DNA from: Candidatus Bathyarchaeota archaeon B24-2
Lineage (GTDB): Archaea; Thermoproteota; Bathyarchaeia; Bathyarchaeales; B24-2
Length of the DNA: 38,556 nt
Assembly: GCA_002490245.1 (NCBI GenBank)
Contig: PCNA01000017.1
Location: forward strand, 1-38,556
Reading direction: 5' to 3'
In this document: positions 10,767-19,534 of the stretch, one piece after another
How the letters are laid out: each line of letters starts with the position of its first letter
Position numbering within the stretch: position 1 is the stretch's first letter
Made by a program: the position numbers and the translations under genes
Notes under the pieces: generated by a model
Told to the model about the DNA's origin: nothing
What the model saw: only the letters and a program-made list of their open reading frames with translations
The model's database searches: none

Positions 10767-10897
10767 GGGCCCGTAGCGCAGACTACTTTACAAAGCGAAA
10801 GTAGGCGAAATATGGATAGCGCAACGGCCTCCTAAACCTGAAGACCACCGATGGAGAGAGCCGTGGGTCGTGGGTTCAAATCCCACCGGGCCCGCCA
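10767..10897 (+). tRNA. tRNA-Arg(CCT) with two putative introns (10782-10810 in the D-loop; 10835-10858 at 37/38); CCA encoded
   Basis: Acceptor GGGCCCG/CGGGCCC, D-stem GCGC/GCGC, anticodon stem ACGGC/GCCGT with loop CTCCTA-A, T-arm GTGGG TTCAAAT CCCAC, discriminator G then CCA. Removing 29 + 24 nt leaves a canonical tRNA; BHB-like pairing is visible at the 37/38 site. Confidence 0.88.
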
Positions 10898-11058: not shown

Positions 11059-11547
11059 TTGGTGAACTTTAACGTGGGTAAGATTACGCTTGGAGAGATT
11101 ATAAAGCGGCTAAAATCTGCCTCTAAGAATTTAGAGGAGGCCTTCGGGGAAGCCTATGTTGGGTTGCTACTTTTTGGAAGTTACGCTAGAGGCGAGGCTT
11201 CAGATAGAAGCGACGTCGACGTTCTTGTAGTAATGCGAGGTTTGAAAGGCCTTAAGGTTAGAGGCGACGTTTATGGTATTCTGGCCAAACATGTTGGGAG
11301 GCCGCTTACTCTTATCGATGTGGATTTAGCGGATATTTCGAGAGACGACTTGGAGGTTACGCCTCTACTTCTCAACGCCCTATACGATGGCGTTATAGTT
11401 TATGACAGGTTTGGTGTACTTGAAAGACTTAAGTTGAAGACGATCGAGCTTATAAGAAAAGCCAACCTCGTGAGATATAGGACGCCCGACGGAAAATATG
11501 GTTGGAAGAGGGCTAACGGAAAGCCTATCGAGGCTGTGGAAGCTTGA
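11059..11547 (+). CDS. Minimal nucleotidyltransferase (MNT) domain protein, putative antitoxin
   Basis: 162 aa; LLLFGSYARGEASDRSDVDVLVV (GSxARG...SDxD motif). Confidence 0.88.
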   Translation: MVNFNVGKITLGEIIKRLKSASKNLEEAFGEAYVGLLLFGSYARGEASDRSDVDVLVVMRGLKGLKVRGDVYGILAKHVGRPLTLIDVDLADISRDDLEVTPLLLNALYDGVIVYDRFGVLERLKLKTIELIRKANLVRYRTPDGKYGWKRANGKPIEAVEA

Positions 11548-11981
11548 AGCTTAACCCAAGAAACGAGGTCTCTTATAGGGCCAGACTTGCAATACGATAT
11601 CTAGAGGAGGCTGAAGAGGCTTATAAGCGAGGAGATTATAGAGGTACCGTTGCCTCATCTCAGCTTAGCGCAGAGAACGCTGCTAAGGCTATTATAGCAT
11701 TATTCAGGACGCCTAGTTGGAGTCACGATCCATCCTATGAATTAATAGATGTTTTGCCTCTGCTGCCCGTTGATTTAAGGAGTTTAACTCAGGAACTCGC
11801 TGAGATCACTAGACGCCTTGCACCTGAACATGGAAGGGTTACATATGGCGAGCCCCTGAGAGGTCTCACTCCATGGGATCTATACGATGAGGAAAGTGCT
11901 TCTGAGGTTCTTTTAAGAGCTAGGAGAGCCCGAGAGATAATGGGTATAATACTCAGCAGACTGGGAAATCTTCGGATTTAA
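11544..11981 (+). CDS. HEPN domain protein, MNT partner, putative toxin
   Basis: 145 aa; YRARLAIRYLEEAEEAYKRGDYRGTVASSQLSAENAAKAIIALF...; start overlaps the MNT stop by 4 nt (TTGA). Confidence 0.83.
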   Translation: MKLNPRNEVSYRARLAIRYLEEAEEAYKRGDYRGTVASSQLSAENAAKAIIALFRTPSWSHDPSYELIDVLPLLPVDLRSLTQELAEITRRLAPEHGRVTYGEPLRGLTPWDLYDEESASEVLLRARRAREIMGIILSRLGNLRI

Positions 11982-18637: not shown

Positions 18638-19534
18638 ATGGAGGAATACTTAATGAAGAGCCGTATTAAAGGTGTAATCCCGCCCCTCACAACCCCCTTT
18701 ACAGAGGAGGAGGAAGTCTACGAGGAGGGATTAAGGAACCTTTTAGACTTCCAAATCGAGAGAGGTATACATGGAGTCTTCCTATGCGGCACCTACGGTT
18801 CAGGTCCACTCATGTCGCTCGAGCAGCGTAAGAAAGTAGTAGAAATAGCGATGGATCAAATTAAGGGACGAATAGCGGTCATAGCCCATGTGGGCACAAC
18901 CAACACGCGAGACACCATAGAGCTAGCTAGACATGCCGAAGAGAATGGTGTGGACGCGGTAGCCTCCGTTCCTCCATACTACTATAGACACGACGAGCAG
19001 ACGGTTCTCGAGTATTTCAGAAACCTAGTTAACGCAGTCGATATTCCCGTGTATGTATATAACAATCCTAAGACCTCGGGTTTCACGGTGACTCCATCGA
19101 CGCTCGCGAAGCTAGCAGACTTAGGAGTGAAGGGGATAAAGGATAGTGGGTTCAACCTCATCGAGTTTTCACACTTCATCCTCAGGGAAGAGTTCAACTT
19201 CATAATAGGGACTGAAGCGTTGTTCCTTCCAGCCATGCTTCTGGGAGCGAGCGGATGCATTTCTGGACTAGCAAACGTTTTCCCCGAGCTAGTGGTCGAG
19301 CTATACGACGCCATAGTAGAGAAGAAGTATGAGAAAGCGGCTGAGCTACAGTTAAAGGTTAACAAGGCTCGGCAGATACTCCATATACCGAGGTCGACCA
19401 ACGCCGCATGCTACGCTATGCTGAGGGAGAGAGGAGTCGACGTAGGAGTGCCTAAACGCCCAGTCTTACCGGTACCAGAAGAAAGTGTGAAGTTGATGAA
19501 AGAGGAGTTCGCTAAGATTGGGTTGAATGTTTAG
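18638..19534 (+). CDS. DapA-family aldolase (candidate 2-keto-3-deoxygluconate aldolase or dihydrodipicolinate synthase-like)
   Basis: 298 aa; GVIPPLTTPFTEEEEVYEEGLRNLLDFQIERGIHGVFLCGTYGSGPLMS...VYVYNNPKTSG...GVKGIKDSG (Schiff-base Lys region). Confidence 0.92.
   Translation: MEEYLMKSRIKGVIPPLTTPFTEEEEVYEEGLRNLLDFQIERGIHGVFLCGTYGSGPLMSLEQRKKVVEIAMDQIKGRIAVIAHVGTTNTRDTIELARHAEENGVDAVASVPPYYYRHDEQTVLEYFRNLVNAVDIPVYVYNNPKTSGFTVTPSTLAKLADLGVKGIKDSGFNLIEFSHFILREEFNFIIGTEALFLPAMLLGASGCISGLANVFPELVVELYDAIVEKKYEKAAELQLKVNKARQILHIPRSTNAACYAMLRERGVDVGVPKRPVLPVPEESVKLMKEEFAKIGLNV

Follow-up and report, generated by a model that had tools for sequence, protein, structure and literature searches.

An interrupted tRNA-Arg(CCT) gene of Candidatus Bathyarchaeota archaeon B24-2 and a same-site D-loop intron in tRNA-Arg(TCT) genes of relatives

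The tRNA-Arg(CCT) locus of Candidatus Bathyarchaeota archaeon B24-2 raises the question of whether a tRNA gene interrupted by two insertions, one of them in the D-loop, encodes a working tRNA, and from where the D-loop insertion came. A sequence-only reading of the window, that is, the whole analyzed stretch of 38,556 nt (contig PCNA01000017.1), had proposed that both insertions are introns whose excision gives a canonical tRNA. The proposed boundaries agree with intronless orthologs and with five relatives that carry a D-loop intron at the same site, and folding of the spliced RNA gave a perfect cloverleaf for the 75-mer, in which all stems, the conserved nucleotides and the CCA are intact. 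The locus is therefore very probably a functional tRNA-Arg(CCT) gene, apparently present in one copy, and its precursor would be spliced at two introns (Table 1).

Same-order relatives possess intronless Arg(CCT) genes of 75 nt that are as much as 87% identical to the spliced form, with AGNNNGGATA or a close variant as the D-loop. Because these orthologs match the spliced length, the two insertions are exactly the surplus sequence. A ranking script that enumerates introns with bulge-helix-bulge (BHB)-capable flanks, and scores the remaining cloverleaf, returned as its best solution the same pair as the sequence-only reading, 29 nt at 15/16 and 24 nt at 37/38. A CCA end is likewise encoded by the majority of the other tRNA genes in B24-2. 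The TATA-box-like element TTTTAAATAA is located 28 to 37 nt upstream of nucleotide 1 of the tRNA, a position that fits an archaeal TATA box, and it may function as such.

Table 1. Features of the tRNA-Arg(CCT) locus, in window coordinates.
Feature	Position	Strand	Basis
tRNA-Arg(CCT) gene with two introns and encoded CCA	10767-10897	+	sequence
Exon 1, tRNA nt 1-15	10767-10781	+	alignment to intronless orthologs
Intron 1, 29 nt, D-loop 15/16	10782-10810	+	absent from orthologs; top of ranking script; same-site intron in 5 genomes
Exon 2, tRNA nt 16-37, anticodon CCT at 10831-10833	10811-10834	+	alignment to orthologs
Intron 2, 24 nt, canonical 37/38	10835-10858	+	orthologs, ranking script, shuffles
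Exon 3, tRNA nt 38-73	10859-10894	+	alignment to orthologs
Encoded CCA 3' end	10895-10897	+	seen in sequence
Putative promoter, TATA-box-like TTTTAAATAA	10730-10739	+	sequence; position suits archaeal TATA box
Intron 1 BHB	10777-10811	+	MFE fold, shuffles, covariation
Intron 1 BHB central helix	10777-10779/10805-10807	+	MFE fold, shuffles, covariation
Intron 1 BHB 5' bulge AG|A	10780-10782	+	MFE fold, shuffles, covariation
Intron 1 BHB inner helix	10783-10789/10798-10804	+	MFE fold, shuffles, covariation
Intron 1 BHB 3' side AAA|T	10808-10811	+	MFE fold, shuffles, covariation

Intron 1 is extra relative to the intronless orthologs, and its removal leaves a canonical tRNA. When the precursor was folded without constraints, its MFE structure contained the 7-bp hairpin ctacttt/aaagtag noticed in the sequence-only reading, with GCG pairing to the D-stem strand and a 3-nt 5' bulge. 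The form is that of a relaxed BHB, with three of four central pairs, the 3-nt 5' bulge, a 7-bp inner helix and a 3' bulge of 2-3 nt. Of the central pairing originally read as GCGC with GCG(A), three pairs stand and the fourth does not, G10776 facing A10808; relative G071 has all four. The outer pairing CCGTA/TATGG was likewise upheld in part, pairs 9-16, 7-17a, 6-18 and 5-19 being kept in relatives and 8-17 not. When the 29-nt insert was shuffled, none of 200,000 trials equalled the observed BHB fit of three central and seven inner pairs.

Intron 2 occupies the canonical position, with 3-nt bulges (TA|A and AG|A) flanking a 4-bp central helix (10829-10832/10853-10856, 4/4 pairs) and a weak, hBH-like inner helix, the weakness of which the sequence-only reading had noted. 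Since about 1% of shuffles reach the central helix, position and orthology carry more of the case for this intron; the Arg(CCT) gene of relative G034 also has a 37/38 intron. The anticodon arm ACGGC/GCCGT (10824-10864; L009, L021) is common to the Arg(CCT), Thr(TGT) and Glu(CTC) genes of B24-2, and ACCTGAAG, part of the 37/38 intron, is common to Arg(CCT) and Glu(CTC). We do not claim that the anticodon arm is a mosaic derived from Glu(CTC) or Thr(TGT): the idea would rest on an 8-mer and a single base pair, and the G034 Arg(CCT) intron is similar.

A pattern permitting a D-loop insertion was run over 163 genomes of the order and matched six, B24-2 and five of a single genus (g25, family f9). 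The host tRNA in the g25 genomes is Arg(TCT), likewise with a second intron at 37/38. All six 15/16 introns, 29 to 39 nt long, share the consensus A-CTA...TAG-GCG-NAR; the first intron base, the CTA/TAG helix base and the bulge A are the same throughout, and the loops have diverged. Across the relatives the central helix is kept, the inner helix covaries and the loop varies in length. When the five distinct sequences were aligned with their loops trimmed, 96.7% of cells were paired compared with 26-42% in slid controls, a figure that leans toward the structure because the window itself had served to propose it. Three pairs have changed on both sides, which is better evidence for the 15/16 BHB than the paired percentage. 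A similar pattern found no further 15/16 intron in 257 genomes of the class, and six extra matches in a phylum-wide sample of 398 genomes were rejected as chance, having no tRNA in their surroundings. No gene order common with relatives was found among seven neighboring proteins; the flanks are short. The g25 Arg(TCT) genes (L206-L210) have the anticodon loop CCTCTAA, with C at position 33 and not the nearly universal U, and this C would pair with the 37/38 intron.

The B24-2 genome encodes two tRNA_int_endo proteins, and the sequence-only reading had asked whether the splicing endonuclease is of the heteromeric type able to cut relaxed BHB motifs. The 184-aa subunit has the triad Y122, H130 and K161, and its best match is the solved, crenarchaeal-type catalytic subunit 3p1z_B, from what we take to be the Aeropyrum pernix enzyme. 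The second protein, of 192 aa, is without the catalytic histidine, as expected of a structural partner. In the crenarchaea-specific loop, K39 of the 184-aa subunit aligns with A. pernix K44, a lysine tied to broad substrate use (PMC6379350). The genes thus specify a predicted (alpha-beta)2 enzyme, with the Y-H-K triad, the lysine that has been linked to cleavage of relaxed BHB motifs in its loop, and a separate noncatalytic subunit; an RtcB ligase gene is also present. We infer that the gene would be transcribed as a two-intron precursor, that the (alpha-beta)2 endonuclease would cut both BHB motifs, one with a strong inner helix and a 3-bp central helix in the D-loop and one with a 4-bp central helix and a weak inner helix at 37/38, and that RtcB would join the exons. 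Because the 5' strand of the D-stem is paired to intron 1, the D-arm would form only once intron 1 is out. Among Arg codons in the long ORFs of the window, AGG is the most frequent (41%).

Were the locus instead a decaying pseudogene, the insertions would be damage and AGG would be decoded by another tRNA, for which the tRNA-Arg(TCT) of the genome, reading AGG by wobble, is a candidate. Common finders call no gene here: neither ARAGORN nor the Rfam model reports the locus. The earlier remark that standard finders may miss it is right for these two and would hold less surely for tRNAscan-SE 2.0, which searches for noncanonical archaeal introns by default (PMC8450103). Against decay stand the intact stems, conserved nucleotides and CCA, the BHB shape of both insertions and the conservation of the D-loop insertion at the same site elsewhere. 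A second Arg(CCT) gene, which would have spoken for an unexpressed copy here, was sought in the draft genome (1.35 Mb, 92 contigs, 97.9% complete) and no other full-length copy was found, but one could be missing because of the 92-contig assembly. We regard decay as extremely improbable. It is also very unlikely that the D-loop boundary lies 1-3 nt away, at 16/17 to 17a/18. Sliding the 29-nt excision to the right by up to three bases still leaves AGNNNGG, as the orthologs have, but the BHB bulges fit 15/16, and the exon following the intron in relatives is CCT/CTT-GG, like that of an intronless Arg(TCT) gene (L149).

How the same site came to be occupied in two isoacceptors is less certain. 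In a FastTree phylogeny of four ribosomal and polymerase proteins, B24-2 diverges early within its order, though support is modest, and its lineage and genus g25 are not sisters. Its ribosomal protein S13 is at most 63% identical to the closest homologs, which are from Bathyarchaeota, and the relatives returned included no further member of its family. Since the two groups are not sisters, the 15/16 intron was inherited and lost many times, or it moved, or it arose twice. An independent gain in the B24-2 lineage and in g25, with the tRNA spliced as described, is possible but rather doubtful; the likeness would then reflect only the demands of a BHB at a common D-stem sequence (GCGY). It would suit the differing isoacceptors, the nonsister lineages and the absence of such an intron from the other genomes searched. 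Moreover, the GCG block is dictated by exon pairing, so that identity beyond the pairing demands comes to some 5 free bases, and homology of the introns is likely, not proven. However, all six introns agree in the first intron base, the CTA/TAG base and the bulge A despite their diverged loops, and the insertion point is exactly the same. In the intronless Arg(CCT) genes listed, GCCT or GCTC forms the 5' strand of the D-stem, and B24-2 Arg(CCT) has GCGC there; the Arg(TCT) gene of relative G009 has GCGC as well, which would fit transfer from a gene of the Arg(TCT) type. Tentatively, and with somewhat less than even confidence, we suggest that the D-loop intron passed from one arginine isoacceptor gene to another, and across lineages of a single order, carrying the D-stem (GCGY) with it, by transposition or by conversion of a tRNA half. 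If this is true, tRNA intron transposition operates well outside the Thermoproteales.

Archaeal tRNA genes with multiple BHB introns, or with BHB introns in the D-arm, are well known (reviewed in PMC4090602; see also PMC4307357, PMC3293823), and those in the D-arm of Sulfolobus tokodaii tRNA-Glu are cut in vitro by EndA (PMC4307357). The two-intron tRNA-Arg(CCT) is a further case of this known archaeal habit. It resembles the genes of Thermoproteales and other Crenarchaeota in its BHB or relaxed BHB motifs, D-arm site, two introns per gene and (alpha-beta)2 endonuclease, but the host belongs to the Bathyarchaeia, and 15/16 is not among the examples given in the text of PMC4090602. No mention of site 15/16 in archaea was found in the text lists of the literature compared. 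The tRNA-Thr(GGU) of Caldiarchaeum subterraneum also has two introns, one in the D-arm (24/25 and 45/46), but differs in tRNA, positions and lineage (PMC3293823). The permuted tRNA-Arg(CCT) of Cyanidioschyzon merolae is listed with a 27-nt hBHBh' intron at 14/15, alike in anticodon, length and near-identical D-loop site, but it is from a red alga and the gene is circularly permuted (PMC3978253); the likeness is probably coincidence. A 2010 study cited in PMC4033280 described similar introns in different tRNA species; here, the intron is at the same site in different arginine isoacceptors from different families of one Bathyarchaeia order. Our literature search found no work on tRNA introns of the Bathyarchaeia, an uncultured archaeal class that now joins the intron-rich lineages. 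What deserves further work is that a single D-loop intron appears to be shared by, or to have been transposed between, arginine isoacceptors of distant lineages. The case is a tractable one in which to ask by what route tRNA introns spread and if the D-stem travels along.

The interrupted tRNA-Arg(CCT) is one of several such genes in B24-2. Rfam reports 24 tRNAs above threshold; further ones came from T-loop pattern matches and an intron-aware script, a survey that may be incomplete. About eight other genes have noncanonical introns, namely Arg(TCT), His, Val(CAC), Leu(TAA), Leu(CAA), Leu(GAG), Arg(TCG) and Arg(CCG), some assignments being provisional and that of Arg(CCG) read by eye. Several further tRNA-like genes are missed by the Rfam model, and common tools underestimate the tRNA inventories of such genomes. 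On the minus strand, a 178-nt tRNA-like gene (L169), with acceptor and T arms that match, seems to have at least two introns, for which a search produced no convincing splicing solution. Within the window, a weak Rfam match to HOTAIR_3 (19203-19290, plus strand; 22 bits, E 0.71), far under threshold, was taken as chance. Just downstream of tRNA-Arg(CCT), at 11059-11981 on the plus strand, adjoining genes encode an MNT-like nucleotidyltransferase and a HEPN protein, a layout typical of a toxin-antitoxin pair.
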